A DNA stretch of 64,000 nucleotides from Periplaneta americana (taxonomy: Eukaryota > Arthropoda > Insecta > Blattodea > Blattidae), in NCBI RefSeq assembly GCF_040183065.1, contig NC_091120.1, positions 180,962,896 to 181,026,895 of the forward strand. The letters are read 5' to 3'. The notes below the pieces were generated by a model, which did no database searches, was not told the DNA's origin, and saw only the letters and a program-made list of their open reading frames with translations. Shown piece by piece: positions 3,465 through 54,690 of the stretch; within the stretch, counting starts at the first letter, position 1, and every line of letters begins with the position of its first letter. The position numbers and the translations under genes are program-made.

Positions 3465-3665
3465 GTGATTTTATTTTTTCTCAAACTACGATAATTATGT
3501 ACCGGGTGTACCAAGTTAAGCGTTACAAGTTCTTTAGAAGAGAAGTAAACTAGTGAAATCATTCAGGACACAAGCAAGGTTTACTTTTCATTGACAGTTC
3601 TTTATTTAAGGTCCCTTTTAAACCGAAGGGAATCTTTAGAGACGTGATGATAAAATCGTGATAAT
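3465..3665 (-). repeat. inverted unit of the 430-1880 array
   Basis: The reverse complement gives, in the array's order, GGTTTAAAAGGGACC, then AATGAAAAGTAAACC, then GTACACCCGGTACA. Array units therefore also exist singly and in the opposite orientation, about 1.6 kb away. Confidence 0.72.
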
Positions 3666-3750: not shown

Positions 3751-3871
3751 GTATTATTACTATTTAATACGAGAAAAATTCGTACCGGCACCGGGAATCG
3801 AACCCAGGACCCCTCTGGGTTCGATTACCGGTGCCGGTACGAATTTTTCTCGTATTAAATAGTAATAATAC
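3751..3871. repeat. near-perfect palindrome with a tRNA B box in each arm
   Basis: Arms 3751-3806 and 3816-3871 are 56 bp each, with one mismatch and a 9-bp spacer. Each arm carries a TGGGTTCGATTCC-type B box followed by GTGCCGGTACGAATTTTTC. This looks like two 3' parts of one tRNA-derived SINE joined head to head. No second half of either SINE is present next to it. Confidence 0.88.
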
Positions 3872-4421
3872 ACATTGGCTACTTCATAGTAGTCGTGTAA
3901 TATTCAATGAGGTGGGCGAGACCTCATACATAATGAATATGTGATGTAACTACAGTATATAACAGTGACAATAAAAACAAATTTAAGATGTTCGGAATGG
4001 TTAATTTAAATAAATAATACAGTTAAATTTATAGTAAGGAATTAAATAGGCCTATTACTGAAAATATTATAATTTTGTGTAAAAAAGTTTACAAATAATA
4101 TAAAAGGAAGTGGCATTGCCATGATGTAATACTTCTATACACTGAATGGATCGAAATCATAAGGCAAACTAGCGAAAGTGACAAATTAGCGAATCTTCAC
4201 TTAAGGTCTACATTGTACAATCTATAAGAACTACATTCTGGCAAAGTATCGTACCTGCAGCTGCTGTGCTTTTTTCACCGAACTACGAAGCTAGTATATT
4301 AGACTATGCAGAAGTAGCGAATCTGCACTGTTGTTAGTTTACCATAGTCATTATTGTGGAAGTCGTCAACATTCACTACGGCAAATTAACGAAAGTGTCG
4401 GATCAGCTGTGTGATTGTTAG

Positions 4422-6037
4422 AATTTTCCCGCGGTTTTTGTTTGTCGCGAGTTTTTTCTGGACACATTAAATATCTCCGAAGGTTTAGTCAGGGGAGCAC
4501 TACGTAAAGTCACTGAACAAGGAATTTTACTTCCTGAGATGAGAGGGACACAAGAACCAAAGAACAAGCTTAATACAGAAGACGAAGCATTCATTAGGGA
4601 ACACATACTGTCTTTCCCGAGCGTAGAATCACACTTCTGCCGGAGGAAAAGTGAATACAGATATCTGGAACCCAATCTAAACATTACAAAAATGTATGAA
4701 CTGCACGAAAAGAAATGTCGTGACTCAGAAACAAGATATTGTGCAAGTATTGAAAAGTACAGGAGAATTTTCCGCGAATACAAAATTACCTTCCATGTTC
4801 CTAAGAAGGATCACTGCAAAACTTGTTCAATATATATTTTTAGTACGTTATTTTACGACGCTTTATCAACGTCTTAGGTTATTTAGCGTCTGAATGAGAT
4901 GCCGGTGAAGTGAGTCCGGGGTCTAGTACCGAAAGTTACCCATTTACTCGTATAGGGTTGAAGGAAAACCCCGGAAAAAACGTCAACCAGGAATCGAACC
5001 CAGGCCACCTGGTTTCACGGCTGTAGAAAAAAAGAAAACAGGGGAATTAACTGAAAATGAAAAAGAATCGTACAAAGAACATGTGGAGAGGAAAGAAGCT
5101 GCCCGTAATTTGAAAGACGTTGGTGAAGAGAAAACAAAGAATAACAAAACAATGTTGGCATTTGAATTCGATTTGCAGGCTGTTTTAAGTACCCCAAAAG
5201 GAGCTCAGGGTCCACTTTTCTATGTAAGGAAGCTGGCTGTGTATAATTGAACAGTTTACAATTTAGGTGATGCTTCAGTAGAATGTTTTATACGAGATGA
5301 GACTAAAGGAAAGAGAGGAAGCGTGGAAATTTCAGCTTGCGTTTACTCTTACCGCATGAAATACCCTAATGCTGAGACTGTAATGATGATGTCGGACAGC
5401 TGCGGAGGACAGCAAAAAAAAAAAAAAAAAACACAAATTTTGTATGTATGTGTCTAGAAGCAGTAAAAAACCATCCAAAAATCCAGCAGATTGATCATAT
5501 TTATTTTGAATCAGGACATAGTTTAATGGAGTGCGACTCTATACATCAAAACATATTTATGTCTGCAAAACAATTCCCAGTGTACACTCCAGAAGGGTGG
5601 GTTCAACAGATAGGGACTGCACGAAAGAATCCATCACCCTACAATGTATCTTCATTGGTACATGATGACTTCCTTGACTTCAACCAAAACAAGAATAATT
5701 TTACAGCTGAGGAAGAGAATACTTCTTTGCTCTCCCGACAAACGGTGTGGTTCGTTACACGAAGGATGCACCATGTACGGTTCAGATAAAGACTGGGTAT
5801 GAAGACAGCTACTTCAAAAGGTTCACTTTCAAGCAACGAAGGGGCCGCCCATTAAAGTCTGAACCAGTGAAACCTTACTGTGCAAGATTATGTATATCTG
5901 ATGCCAAACGAAAGGATCTGCAAAAACTTTGTGATGACCTGCAAATCCCGAAGGCATATCATGGATTTTATGAAAGCCTTCCATCATCAGCAACTGTGAG
6001 AGATGCTTTAGCAGAGCCAAATATTTCAGAGGAGTAA
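4422..6037 (+). pseudogene. broken transposon gene, DUF7869-like protein
   Basis: The frame opens at 4422 just after ATTGTTAG, which looks like a 3' splice site. It reads VCREFFLDTLNIS, then a region with SHFCRRKS-like and ITKMYELHEKKC motifs and a VPKKDHCKTC cysteine pair up to about 4830. After a SINE the frame resumes near 5022 and carries FEFDLQAVLS, then MMMSDSCGGQQ and IYFESGHSLMECDSIH. The last two are the blocks I remember from an insect-expanded family called DUF7869, probably an RNase H-like transposase; that name is from memory. It is dead four ways: the SINE insertion, TGA at 5248, an A-run with a likely indel at 5415-5432, and a frame change near 5745. The C-terminal part ends at the stop before 6038. 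Confidence 0.72.
4848..5022 (-). mobile_element. SINE family 1, truncated at its head
   Basis: The sequence runs antisense from TTATTTTACGACGC through CCGAAAGTTACCCA to a B box (GGTTCGATTCC on the minus strand). The A-box end is missing. It interrupts the DUF7869-like gene after its CKTC cysteine pair, and the host frame resumes in sense directly after it. Confidence 0.88.
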
Positions 6038-6152
6038 GACCAAGAATAGATTGGAAAAGTATTATTAAATAACACAAAAGTTTTTTTTTTAATTATTACT
6101 GACCAAAAAAAAGTTGTTTCATTATTTCTTGAATGTGTCCTCAACTCGTAAA

Positions 6153-6412
6153 GTCCACACCTGTGGAGTAACAGTTGGCGCGTCTAGCCGCGAAACCAGA
6201 TGGCCCGGGTTCGATTCCCGGTCGGGGCAAGTTACCTGGTTGAGGTTTTTTTCCAGGGTTTTCCCTGAACCCAATATGAGCAAATGCTGGGTAACTTTCG
6301 GTGTTGCACCCCAGACTCTTTTCACCGGCATTATCACCTTCATCTCATTCAGACGCTAAATAACCTAAGCTGTTGATAAAGCATCTTGAAATAACCTAAT
6401 AAAATAACAAAA
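6153..6412 (+). mobile_element. SINE family 1, full length
   Basis: It starts TCCACACCTGTGGAGTAAC. The tRNA-like head has an A-box region and the B box GGTTCGATTCC, followed by the body (CAAATGCTGGGTAACTTTCGG) and the 3' part GACGCTAAATAACC. It is flanked by a perfect 12-bp target duplication, TCAACTCGTAAA, at 6141-6152 and 6413-6424. This is the signature of LINE-driven retroposition. A short frame through it is incidental. Confidence 0.93.
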
Positions 6413-6800
6413 TCAACTCGTAAATTAAATGTTCTAATAAAATATTACATACACTTCTTATTTCCTTTCAATCCCTCTAATTTCTAAGTACAAGTGTATC
6501 TACTTAAATCATAATCATTAGTAAAACAATAACGGTTGTAGTGCAGACTCAACACTTTGCACCATGATGAGAGATGGGATGTGTAATAATATCACTCAGG
6601 CAAAGTAACGTAACTGCCATTTCTGCCCTTAAAACAAAGAAAAAGCACACAAACCGAAACTAATCTCACACAAGTTGGTAAACTAGTTTTTTAACACATG
6701 AAACAAACCATGCAAGAATAATACTTGATTTTACGTGAGCAATCAAAGTTTGTTTTAGCTCTCCTGAAAAATTAACAATTTGCATTTTCGCTAGTTTGCC

Positions 6801-7143
6801 AGAGGAGGGACGATATGCAAGTTAGCATTTTTAATGCATCTACAGACCGGGGAGAGAGATTTAGAACTTTTAATAGCCTATCGAAAAGTTTGTGATGTCT
6901 CATGTCCTTCATCGGAATACGAAAGTTGGCATTGCTTAAGAAAGATTTACAATTAATGTCATGTTTAAGAATCTTACATAACAATATGTAATCGAGTTCT
7001 TGACGTCTAGCATACAAGCTTCGACATTTAAAGTACTCACATGTTCGCTCATAGCTATGTCCGGAGTTATAAGGCTGAAATCTGTACGAACATAATGATA
7101 TAAATTTTCTTTTAATTCTTTCTAATTTAGCCGAATCAGTAGT
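6801..7143 (-). mobile_element. LINE C-terminal fragment (family G)
   Basis: The minus strand is open from TTDSAKLERIKRKFIS through YARRQELDYILLCKILK to NLSPRSVDALKM. This is the usual tail of arthropod jockey-like reverse transcriptases (LERxQRKF, RRxxLD, LRxxxLF, RSxxxR). It is truncated at its 5' side where an AT repeat begins. At 6800 it is cut by the right end of the DNA transposon. A weak continuation (YDFDPFSV) left of 4163 suggests the transposon split this LINE. Confidence 0.78.
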
Positions 7144-13269: not shown

Positions 13270-13801
13270 TGTCCGCCAAGTTAGCTCTGTGATAGCGTGT
13301 CTTCCACCAAACTAGCTGGCCCGGGTTCGATTCCCGGCGAGGTCAGAAATTTTAATATAAAAAAATTCTACCTCGGAACTAGGAGAGATGGCGATGCACA
13401 ACTTGTAATCACTACATTGTGCACCAATATGCCTGGGCTAATTCCAAATCTCTCCGCAGTGCATATGAAGAGGAGGCATATGTTACCGTTGATAGTGATT
13501 CGTCCCTCGGAGGGGACGTTAAGCCTGGCGGCCCTCTTGGTGCTATTCGACAGGAGTAGGCTACGTGCCGGCACCGGGTTTCCCCTTCTCCCTTCCTCAT
13601 CTTCATCATCATCATCACTCATTTCAGACACTACACTTACACGAACACTTATACATACACTCACCTTAGTACACGACATAACTCTCTACAGATACACATC
13701 ATGTACAGCGTGACTCGCCGAAGTGGTGTACAACTAGAAAATGGGTCACAGTTCTGCCATCTAACCACACCCGAATCACGCAAGTGAAGCGGGTGGGCAA
13801 T

Positions 13802-25592: not shown

Positions 25593-25939
25593 TAGGGACC
25601 GGATTTTTATGTAATTACATATTATATTCCTTTCAACCTAACCGTATATAAATAACAAATCTTTGCGAATCTTGTAATTACCATTAATATACAGAGTGTT
25701 TCAAAAATAGAGGGCATAATTTCAGATATGTATTCCCCATATGTAGACAATACAAAAAGTTCATTACAACATGTGTCCGGAAATGCTTGGTTTCCGAGTT
25801 ATGGCCTTCAAAACAGTGATATTCACCGGAACGTTTTTCTTCACGCAGGTAGGTGCCGTGACAGGAGATATTAACAAAGGACACTCTGACAGTTAATTCC
25901 GAGGCGAAGGGTACATTGAGTGTTGTGTTTGGCGTTGTA

Positions 25940-27005
25940 CAGGGACATCATTTTATTTTTACTAACATTTTTAATATTAATCTGGCTATACTTTTCTATT
26001 AACGATTGAAACAGGAAACACCGTTTGCTACCCCTTCCACGACTGGCGTAGATATAGGAGGGAAGAAAAGTAGTTCATCGATTTATGTAAACTAGGAAAT
26101 ATCACGATTTTGAGTTTGATAATTTTTATTAGGTTTTTGTTTAATCAAAATACAGTATTGTATTAACAGTGTTTTTACTCACGAATTGAGCTATCCATTC
26201 GAACGTATTAATTATGTATTGTATATTGTACTGTTGCAGCGCATTAGCGTACAATATAGAGAATGAAGTTAAATTGAAAATTATCATAATATGGATATTT
26301 AAACACATTTTTGAAAATGGTGGCCATTCATTTCGATACAGGCTTCAGTTCTTTTGTGCATATTATCACACTATAGACTATTGTACCTAATTCCAATTAC
26401 CAGTTTCGTCCTTCGTATGAGTAACTCATGTTGAAATAATTCTGTACCTACTCTATAAAAGAGTACCTTACGTATTGTAAATTCAATCTTCACTTCTGCC
26501 CGATCCGAAAAGATAAAATTACTCAGAAATGCTATCTACTGTCCGTTCAAGTGGTTTTGTCGCAGGGTCGTAGGAAGGGGGGGATCACGTGACAGTTAAT
26601 TACTTAACGAGGCCCTTTTATTTAAGTTATTTTAAACACTTGTGTAATATTACGCAGACGTCCAATTCCTAACAGAAATTAATGTTTTCAGAAAAGAGCT
26701 AAGATAGCCCAGCTACGAGACTTTACAGAGGAGCGAACAGAAGCAGGTGGGGGAAACCGGGATGCGACGTAGGCAAACGGACGACAGTACCTGTGCGAAA
26801 ATATGATTCAATATTGAAAGCGCTTTCGTCACTGGAAAACGCGAACATATTTCTGGAACGTACTGTACTCACTCAGTACTGCTTACGCGCCCTCAGCTCT
26901 GTGTCGTGAACGGTTGGAAGTTTACTAGTAGAAGGGGTGGGAGTGAAGTACATTCAAAAACTCAGGTACAATAAAAATTGAAGTAAAAATAAAGTGATGT
27001 CCCTG
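25940..27005 (-). mobile_element. mariner-like element 2, copy A
   Basis: Ends CAGGGACATCA(T/C)TTTATTTTT are inverted copies, with TA on each side (25938-25939, 27006-27007). It sits upstream of the transposase start of element 1. About 340 bp near 26100-26450, lost from copy B (39277-40636), contain a minus-strand RTEACIEMNGHHFQ tail. This resembles the C-terminus of mariner-like transposases (RxxxCIxxNGxHF). The rest of the gene is gone, so it is a deletion derivative. Confidence 0.85.
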
Positions 27006-51664: not shown

Positions 51665-52027
51665 CTCTGTTGGACAGCTGTCTTCAGTACACTTTGTATG
51701 GTGAAACAGCTGATCTATTCTGATTTATCACACTGCCATCTTTATGAGATTCAGGTATGTGATACTTTGTAGGCCTATAGCTATAATAATAATATCATAC
51801 AATTGTAGACAGCAAATTAATTACTTATTTATTCTTCTAAGATAAATTATTACATTTTCCCTTTACTACAAACTTCTGTACTTCTATGACGAAGAGTTTA
51901 TGACTGACATTCTGAAAATTCTACCTAGGCCGCAAATGTTCCGCGACAAATCAAATCCAATGAAAGGGTATGACGATGTTTATTTCAAGTTCTGTTTCAA
52001 TTTCTTTGGAGAAAACAATCAAGAGCC
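51665..52027. other. no feature seen
   Basis: AT-rich sequence up to the start of the minisatellite. Confidence 0.4.
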
Positions 52028-54690
52028 TTCTACATTAAGGCAGCAGGTATGGTGGTAGGTGGTCAGAAAGGCAGGCAGCAGGCAGGCAGGTTGCAAGGCA
52101 CCCAGGTAGGCCGGTAGGAAGGTAGGCAGCCAAGTTGGCAGCCAGGCAGCCAGGTAGGCAGACTGGCAGATAGGAGGGCAGGCAGCCAGGCAGGCTGGCA
52201 GATAGGAGGGTAGGCAGCCAGGCAGGCAGCCAGACTGGCAGATAGGAGGGTAGGCAGCCAGACTGGCAGATAGAAGGGTAGGCAGCCAGCCAGGCAGGCA
52301 GACTGGCAGGTAGGAGGGTAGGCAGCCAGGCAGGCTGGCAGATAGGAGGGTAGGCAGCCAGGCAGACTGGCAGATAGGAGGGTAGGCAGCCAGCCAGGCA
52401 GACAGACTGGCAGATAGGAGGGTAGGCAGCCAGCCAGGCAGCCAGACTGGCAGATAGGAGGGTAGGCAGCCAGCCAGGCAGGCAGACTGGCAGGTAGGAG
52501 GGTAGGCAGCCAGGCAGGCTGGCAGATAGGAGGGTAGGCAGCCAGGCAGGCAGGCAGACTGGCAGATAGGAGGGTAGGCAGCCAGCCAGGCAGGCAGACT
52601 GGCAGATAGGAGGGTAGGCAGCCAGCCAGGCAGGCAGACTGGCAGGTAGGAGGGTAGGCAGCCTGGCAGGCTGGCAGATAGATGGGTAGGCAGCCAGGCA
52701 GGCTCGCAGATAGGAGGGTAGGCAGCCAGGCAGGCAGACTGGCACGATAGGAGGGTAGGCAGCCAGCCAGGCAGGCTGGCAGATAGGAGGGTAGGCAGCC
52801 AGCCAGGCAGGCTGGCAGATAGGAGGGTAGGCAGCCAGGCAGGCAGGCAGACTGGCAGATAGGAGGGTAGGCAGCCAGGTAGGCAGACTGGCAGATAGGA
52901 GGGTAGGCAGCCAGGCAGGCAGGCAGGCTGGCAGATAGGAGGGTAGGCAGCCAGCCAGGCAGGCAGACTGGCAGGTAGGAGGTAGGCAGCCAGCCAGGCA
53001 GGCAGACTGGCAGATAGGAGGGTAGGCAGCCAGGCAGGTAGCCAGACTGGCAGATAGGAGGGTAGGCAGCCAGCCAGGCAGGCAGACTGGCAGATAGGAG
53101 GGTAGGCAGCCAGACTGGCAGGTAGGAGGGTAGGCAGCCAGACTGGCAGATAGGAGGGTAGGCAGCCAGCCAGGCAGGCAGACTGGCAGGTAGGAGAATA
53201 GGCAGCCTGGCAGACAGCCAGACTGGCAGATAGGAGGGTAGGCAGCCAGCCAGGCAGGTAGGAGGGTAGGCAGCCTGGCAGGCAGCCAGACTGGCAGATA
53301 GGAGGGTAGGCAGCCAGGCAGGCAGGCAGACTGGCAGGTAGGAGGGTAGGCAGCCAGGCAGGCAGCCAGACTGACAGATAGTAGGGTAGGCAGCCAGCCA
53401 GGCAGGCAGACTGGCAGGTAGGAGGGTAGGCAGCCAGACAGGCAGATAGGAGGGTAGGCAGCCAGACTGGCAGATAGGAGAGTAGGCAGCCAGCCAGGCA
53501 GGCAGACTGGCAGGTAGGAGGGTAGGCAGCCAGGCAGGCAGCCAGACTGGCAGATAGGAGGGTAGGCAGCCAGGCAGGCAGACTGGCAGGTAGGAGGGTA
53601 GGCAGCCAGACTGGCAGATAGGAGGGTAGGCAGCCAGCCAGGCAGGCAGACTGGCAGGTATGAGGGTAGGCAGCCAGGCAGGCAGCCAGACTGGCAGATA
53701 GGAGGGTAGGCAGCCAGACTGGCAGATAGGAGGTTAGGCAGCCAGCCAGGCAGCCAGACTGGCAGATAGGAGGGTAGGCAGCCAGGCAGGCAGCCAGACT
53801 GGCAGGTAGGAGGGTAGGCAGCCAGGCAGGCAGCCAGACTGGCAGATAGGAGGGTAGGCAGCCAGCCAGGCAGGCAGACTGGCAGTTAGGAGGGTAGGCA
53901 GCCAGGCAGGCAGCCAGACTGGCAGATAGGAGGGTAGGCAGCCAGCCAGGCAGGCAGACTGGCAGGTAGGAGGGTAGGCAGCCAGGCAGGCAGGCTGGCA
54001 CGTAGGAGGGTAGGCAGCCAGGCAGGCAGGCAGACTGGCAAGTAGGAGGGTAGGCAGCCAGACTGGCAAGTAGGAGGGTAGGCAGCCAGCCAGGCAGGCA
54101 GACTGGCAGGTAGGAGGGTAGGCAGCCAGGCAGGCAGCCAGACTGACAGATAGGAGGGTAGGCAGCCAGCCAGGCAGCCAGACTGGCAGATAGGAGGGTA
54201 GGCAGCCAGGCAGGCAGCCAGACTGGCAGATAGGAGGGTAGGCAGCCAGGCAGGCAGGCAGACTGGCAGGTAGGAGGGTAGGCAGCCAGGCAGGCAGCCA
54301 GACTGGCAGATAGGAGGGTAGGCAGCCAGCCAGGCAGGCAGACTGGCAGGTAGGAGGATAGGCAGCCAGTCAGGCAGCCAGACTGGCAGATAGGAGGGTA
54401 GGCAGCCAGCCAGGCAGGCAGACTGGCAGATAGGAGGGTAGGCAGCCAGGCAGGCAACCAGACTGGCAGATAGGAGGGTAGGCAGCCAGCCAGGCAGGCA
54501 GACTGGCAGGTAGGAGGGTAGGCAGCCAGGCAGGCAGCCAGACTGGCAGATAGGAGGTTAGGCAGCCAGCCAGGCAGGCAGACTGGCAGGTAGGAGGGTA
54601 GGCAGCCAGGCAGGCAGCCAGACTGGCAGATAGGAGGGTAGGCAGCCAGGAAGGCAGGCAGGCAGCTAGGCAAATAGGCAGGTAAGCAGG
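52028..54690. repeat. 2.66-kb minisatellite built from GGCA/GGTA words
   Basis: Units of about 32-48 bp vary on the theme GGAGGGTAGGCAGCCAG, CCAGGCAGGCAGACTGGCAG and ATA. Unit lengths change mostly by 4 bp, which points to origin from a (GGCA)n tetranucleotide by slippage and mutation. The minus strand stays open for 884 codons and also in other frames (Leu-Pro-Ala-Cys-rich), because the words contain no TTA, CTA or TCA on the plus strand. I do not regard that frame as a gene. The edges fade into plain (CAGA)-like repeats near 54700. Confidence 0.95.

Follow-up and report, generated by a model that had tools for sequence, protein, structure and literature searches.

DNA transposon families of Periplaneta americana with a DUF7869 gene as the probable transposase

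A stretch of 64,000 nucleotides from Periplaneta americana (assembly GCF_040183065.1, contig NC_091120.1, positions 180,962,896 to 181,026,895; hereafter the window) carries at positions 4163-6812 a decayed, left-truncated copy of a DNA transposon. This copy is interpreted as a cut-and-paste element whose gene, of the kind listed in Pfam as DUF7869, encodes the transposase (probability about 0.92), and the DUF7869 family very probably supplies the enzyme by which elements of this kind are moved. The interpretation draws on several families, named A (to which the window copy belongs) to E. Among them are families whose terminal repeats, about 30 bp long, occur in pairs, with AT-rich target duplications of 4 bp, empty sites and near-identical full-length copies that hold one long open gene. 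An earlier sequence-only reading had suggested that the protein is a transposase, and this is supported by the location of the gene inside paired termini, the target duplications, the empty sites and a predicted RNase H fold.

Termini, copies and target site duplications

The terminal sequence GGCAAACTAGCGAAA was found exactly at 4163-4177 (plus strand) and 6786-6800 (minus strand) and at no third exact place in the window, while up to three mismatches gave seven window matches against a shuffle mean of 1.77, a count reached by one of 100 shuffles. The inverted pair around it extended to 17 of 18 bases. The gene lies between inverted ends as previously claimed, although position 6800, taken earlier as the right end, is internal. 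An end comparison among copies gave a complete family A terminal repeat of 30 bp, CGTCCCNCCTCTGGCAAACTAGCGAAAGTG, and since the repeat of the sister copies runs 12 bases further, the right end of the window copy was set at 6812 and its left end is without the outer 12 bases and the target copy.

The host genome searched comprised 3.23 Gb in 91 contigs, and the family A DNA search scored 40 of 9903 candidates, so copy counts are lower bounds. At least eight places, including the window, matched element positions 1-2638, the other seven at 91-94% identity. The transposon proposal was to be given up if no other copy held the gene between the same termini, and such copies were found. The 30-base terminal pattern with up to three mismatches occurred at 501 genome places (246 + 255) and its reversed control at none. 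Among the 100 exact terminal-repeat places listed there were 32 facing pairs, with spans of 76 bp (two pairs), 135-151 bp (24 pairs), 788 bp, 827 bp and 2675-2705 bp (four pairs), and 36 unpaired places, some of which perhaps have a mismatched partner outside the exact places listed. By the spacing of their ends, the close facing pairs look like miniature elements or short derivatives.

Thirty loci were compared for target duplications; 12 were without one or both ends and the 18 rows with both represented 17 elements, L057 and L058 being one. Identical 4-bp flanks were present in 11 of the 17 (ATAT in seven, ACAT in two, ACTT and ATTT in one each), the elements with clean duplications having been chosen by eye and then measured by script. 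In the other six the left end was lost (L037, which is the window copy, and L040), the sides differed (L042 and L044), one mismatch was present (L043) or the end had decayed (L049). ATAT is self-complementary and could belong to the repeat itself, but the non-palindromic cases show that the 4-bp flanks are duplications. As in a cut-and-paste DNA transposon with terminal inverted repeats, such repeats were found in pairs at dispersed loci, together with a target duplication of fixed length and with empty sites. A host gene spread by segmental duplication, or repeats arising by chance, would accord with the window copy taken alone, in which the left duplication is missing and the gene is dead, but is extremely improbable given the target duplications, the empty sites, the 501 terminal-repeat places and the close facing pairs.

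Empty target sites

The sequence-only reading had described a long interspersed nuclear element (LINE) apparently split around the gene. A search with the joined LINE flanks (40 of 1745 candidates scored) gave 41 scored matches, 38 of which spanned the junction, and two of the remaining three were the window's own flanks. Three spanning LINE copies that were fetched and aligned ran uninterrupted through the insertion site, which together with the 38 matches bears out the split. Target duplications and empty sites, both suggested earlier as checks, were accordingly found, the latter at the LINE junction and at other targets. The target of the family C element L098 was empty at window positions 25687 and 27779, where ATGT stands against ATAT in L098, and that of the family D element L102 was empty at window position 26081 apart from small gaps close by. 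The L039 target was empty in L067 and the L038 target in L042. Two candidates were not counted as empty sites: L041 against window position 13628, where about 10 bases were missing at the site, and L057, where 5-12 additional bases stand next to the site within a repeat array.

Related families with open genes

A protein search of the genome returned 123 matches, including families about 31-52% identical over long parts of the query, in which open frames of 590-686 amino acids lay between matching termini. The three copies of family C that were fetched (L098-L100) lie on three contigs and were 99.4-99.7% identical over 3.2 kb, each with a 590-residue frame; their terminal repeats begin CGCACCCC and all three were flanked by duplications (ATAT, CTAT and ATAT). 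The family C terminal pattern occurred at 21 places, with 10 forming five pairs 3191-3195 bp apart and 11 unpaired, and the five pairs enclosed all five gene places found (query residues 4-455 or 4-456, 37-38% identity). The two unfetched copies, known from protein-search matches, had a stop in one case and a shorter frame of 544 residues in the other. The family C frame has TTTGCAG just before it (L100:1500-1560) and its first methionine at residue 115, so an upstream 5' exon is likely. With its near-identical copies, intact frame and matching ends, family C is a natural starting point for activity tests in insect cells.

The family D copies L101 and L102 were 98.3% identical, with frames of 684 and 686 residues, terminal repeats CGCTCG and flanking ATAT copies on either side of each element, those of L101 inside a TA run. 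The family B repeat, CGTCGTTCCAATGGTAAAGTTGCGAA, resembles that of the window, and one of the two copies with both ends had a duplication (L082, flanked on either side by ATAT within a TA run; L095 had TTAT versus ATAT). Family E was represented by a 671-residue frame (L103).

The broken gene of family A

Between the window ends a coding frame with FDLQ, MSDSCGGQ and SGHSLMECDSIH was recognized in five open pieces. The gene is dead: a short interspersed nuclear element (SINE) occupies about 4838-5022, a stop codon (TGA) stands at 5248, and the frame is further broken by a run of A at 5414-5431 and by shifts. The same SINE occupied the same place in the gene in all 15 aligned family A copies, window included, which had a mean pairwise identity of 93.8%. 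No target duplication was found around it by eye in the alignment of these 15 copies, and its interpretation as an ancestral intron was rejected, as family B has no such stretch at that point. A gene in one stop-free frame was present at none of the 21 family A loci examined. The expectation of intact copies with a full-length gene between the termini was therefore realized in the related families and not among these 21 loci. On the loci examined family A is non-autonomous and defective, although other copies may include an intact one, and since the gene is broken in all aligned copies we infer that they must have moved by means of an enzyme from elsewhere.

Further family A copies in the same DNA search were without the second SINE (about 6149-6402). 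Its presence in some copies and not others marks a sub-branch of the family.

The DUF7869 protein and its predicted fold

The Pfam model PF25273 DUF7869 has a curated cut-off of 26 bits, which was exceeded by the proteins of families D (L101, 44.8 bits), E (L103, 32.2 bits) and C (L100, 28.2 bits). The family A copy L044 fell below it (21.6 bits, E 1.8e-4), and the window gene pieces, single or joined, gave no match to DUF7869. Family A is linked to DUF7869 through the related families at about 31-52% identity. Pfam describes PF25273 merely as a 'domain of unknown function', and the literature library searched contained no paper with the term DUF7869 or the motif text. The host genome contained at least 150 scored DUF7869 matches, with all those listed above the cut-off. 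A likely function is thus offered for a domain this frequent in one animal genome, and transposons may account for many of the predicted 'genes' that carry it. A highly repeated DUF7869 fragment was also seen on many contigs, covering profile positions 66-187 or 66-188 and often with an open frame of exactly 143 residues. It points to a further family of high copy number and may be a single exon from a larger gene.

In the protein alignment the acidic residues and a DxxH after the second Asp were invariant. A fold model was built from a 13-row alignment, a model without alignment being too poor to use, and the family C protein was predicted with moderate confidence to adopt an RNase H fold. 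All 50 VIA-align matches listed for this model were integrases or mariner-type transposases, so the structure comparison proposed earlier returned the RNase H fold of transposases, and the element by prediction encodes a DDE/D transposase of that fold. In family C numbering, Asp305 (FDLQ) is predicted on the first strand and Asp380 (SDxC) after the fourth, and the third acid, Glu422, Asp424 or Glu431, would lie at the helix that follows the fifth strand. The DUF7869 match in L100 does not take in the first conserved Asp (305), since it starts only at residue 353, corresponding to position 35 of the 192 in the profile.

It is very unlikely that the DUF7869 gene is a passenger of elements moved by another transposase. 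Mobilization in trans must occur if, as inferred above, family A copies with a broken gene were moved, and this would suit a passenger gene; yet the DUF7869 frame was the sole open stretch of at least 100 amino acids on either strand of the three family C elements, the next longest in the two family D elements was 125 amino acids, and the invariant acids and predicted RNase H fold would suit the enzyme itself.

Relatives outside the host genome were not found in a viral collection (searched with two window pieces and core alignment A2) or in a prokaryote genome collection (core alignment A2), and PHROGs and PDB sequence searches gave nothing useful. Thirty-six viral contigs with the 15-base terminus had no convincing protein relative (local tblastn, best E 0.018) and were set aside as chance.

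Subterminal motifs and a possible mechanism

Several subterminal variants of the end motif had been described, and shuffling bears this out, with five core variants in two 300-bp stretches of the window against a mean of 0.44. The corresponding counts were 5 against 0.42 in L053, 6 against 0.64 in family B, 6 against 0.14 in family C and 6 against 0.26 in family D, and a second, shorter motif in family C gave 4 against 0.23. In all six tests none of 300 shuffles reached the observed count, for motifs and mismatch limits picked per family by the analyst. The scanned stretch starts 30-40 bp inward of the terminus, and positions are given relative to its first base; that the spacing is similar is a judgement by eye. 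Sites were alike across the families at about +52 to +62 and at +142 to +150 (+128 in the window copy because of a small deletion), followed by a reversed site at about +164 to +172 in A, B and C (+150 in the window copy). A further site lies near +190 to +222, and the last precedes the 3' repeat by about 175-198 bases. Of these positions, family D agrees with the first, the second and the last. This layout, alike despite differing motif letters, offers a testable clue to the way in which the transposase is assembled at the ends.

The enzyme would bind the terminal repeat and its subterminal variants, excise the element and join the ends across a 4-bp AT-rich target, mostly ATAT. Family A may have lost its own enzyme when the SINE entered the gene, and may then have spread using enzyme from other copies.

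Relation to known transposons

The DxxH after the second Asp, invariant in the present proteins, was the feature considered in relation to the hAT, P, MuDR, Kolobok and Dada transposases, whose Pfam models gave no match to the window pieces or the related proteins. A TTAA target duplication is typical of the piggyBac, Kolobok and Sola3 types and was absent among the 17 matched duplications (11 in A, three in C, two in D and one in B). For IS481EU, Ginger and rve integrases a Pfam integrase-core match is expected; none was obtained for the related proteins tested, yet the predicted fold is similar to that kind. Retroviral integrase cores and mariner-type transposases (Mos1, Metnase) have the fold in common with the model at 6-14% identity, with a root-mean-square deviation of 10-13 in the longer alignments, so the predicted likeness is one of common fold and not of close kinship.

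There is a somewhat less than even chance that these elements belong to the known Sola2 group, or to another listed superfamily, with DUF7869 being Pfam's unlabelled name for its transposase. Dictyostelid Sola2 elements, as described in PMC3627910, have terminal repeats of 12-21 bp and 4-bp AT-rich duplications AWWT (ATAT, AAAT, ATTT), which favors this assignment when set beside the ATAT, ATTT, ACAT, ACTT and CTAT found here, as does the report of Sola2 elements from bivalves in PMC10294476. The 4-bp AT-rich duplications, including ATAT and ATTT, are common to both, whereas ACAT, ACTT and CTAT fall outside the strict AWWT, the repeats here are about 30 bp, and no Pfam transposase model matched. 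As the duplications fit Sola2 in a comparison by description and not by sequence, the elements are neither placed in Sola2 nor claimed as a new superfamily. The proposal that the transposon is new accordingly stands in that Pfam labels the domain unknown and no DUF7869 paper was found, and is qualified in that the elements may be, or be kin to, Sola2. A separate animal DDE/D superfamily is a tentative and rather unlikely alternative, to be characterized by termini that begin 5'-CG, AT-rich duplications of 4 bp that are mostly ATAT, DxxH and a conserved asymmetric subterminal set (about +55, +145, +165 reversed, about +190-220 and one 175-198 before the 3' repeat, with family D conforming in part).

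Features of the window copy and its flanks

Table 1 Coordinates of the transposon copy, its gene pieces and its flanks in the window
Feature	Position	Strand	Notes
LINE 3' part in left flank (tested stretch)	3963..4162	-	
Family A DNA-transposon copy, gene broken	4163..6812	+	About 12 bp lost at left; seven sister copies, 91-94% identity
Left terminal inverted repeat, reduced to its inner 18 of 30 bp	4163..4180	+	Outer CGTCCCNCCTCT gone
Subterminal variant GGCAAAGTATCGTA	4240..4253	+	
Subterminal variant GCAGAAGTAGCGAA	4308..4321	+	
Subterminal variant, reverse orientation	4330..4343	-	
Subterminal variant GGCAAATTAACGAA	4380..4393	+	
Transposase gene piece 1 (N-terminal), final residues CKTC (CxxC)	4422..4832	+	Open frame; 39% over 132 residues to intact family C protein
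First SINE, within gene	4838..5022	-	In all 15 aligned copies; no such stretch there in family B
Transposase gene piece 2, FDLQ at 5167-5178 (first conserved Asp)	5029..5247	+	
Transposase gene piece 3, after TGA, MSDSCGGQ at 5389-5412 (second conserved Asp)	5251..5412	+	
18-A run, shifts frame	5414..5431	+	Length varies among copies
Transposase gene piece 4, GHSLMECDSIH at 5514-5546	5433..5747	+	
Transposase gene piece 5, C-terminal part	5747..6034	+	Open frame
Second SINE	6149..6402	+	Missing from a number of sister copies
3' subterminal variant GGCAAAGTAACGTA	6599..6612	+	
Right terminal inverted repeat, complete 30 bp	6783..6812	-	Ends set by sister copies
ATAT target duplication, right copy	6813..6816	.	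Left copy gone; position and length as in sister copies
LINE coding 3' part in right flank (tested stretch)	6817..7011	-	Query start 6812

Other observations in the window

Near the left flank of the element, positions 3751-3871 matched their own reverse complement at 92.6% over 121 bp. Diverged direct repeats, some with TGTACACCCGGTA-like ends, were seen by eye at 500-1800, and the left flank at 3551-3665 matched these repeats in reverse. An 884-residue frame on the minus strand at 52019-54673 consisted of a low-complexity CLPSYLP/CLPGWLP repeat and is probably a minisatellite rather than a gene.
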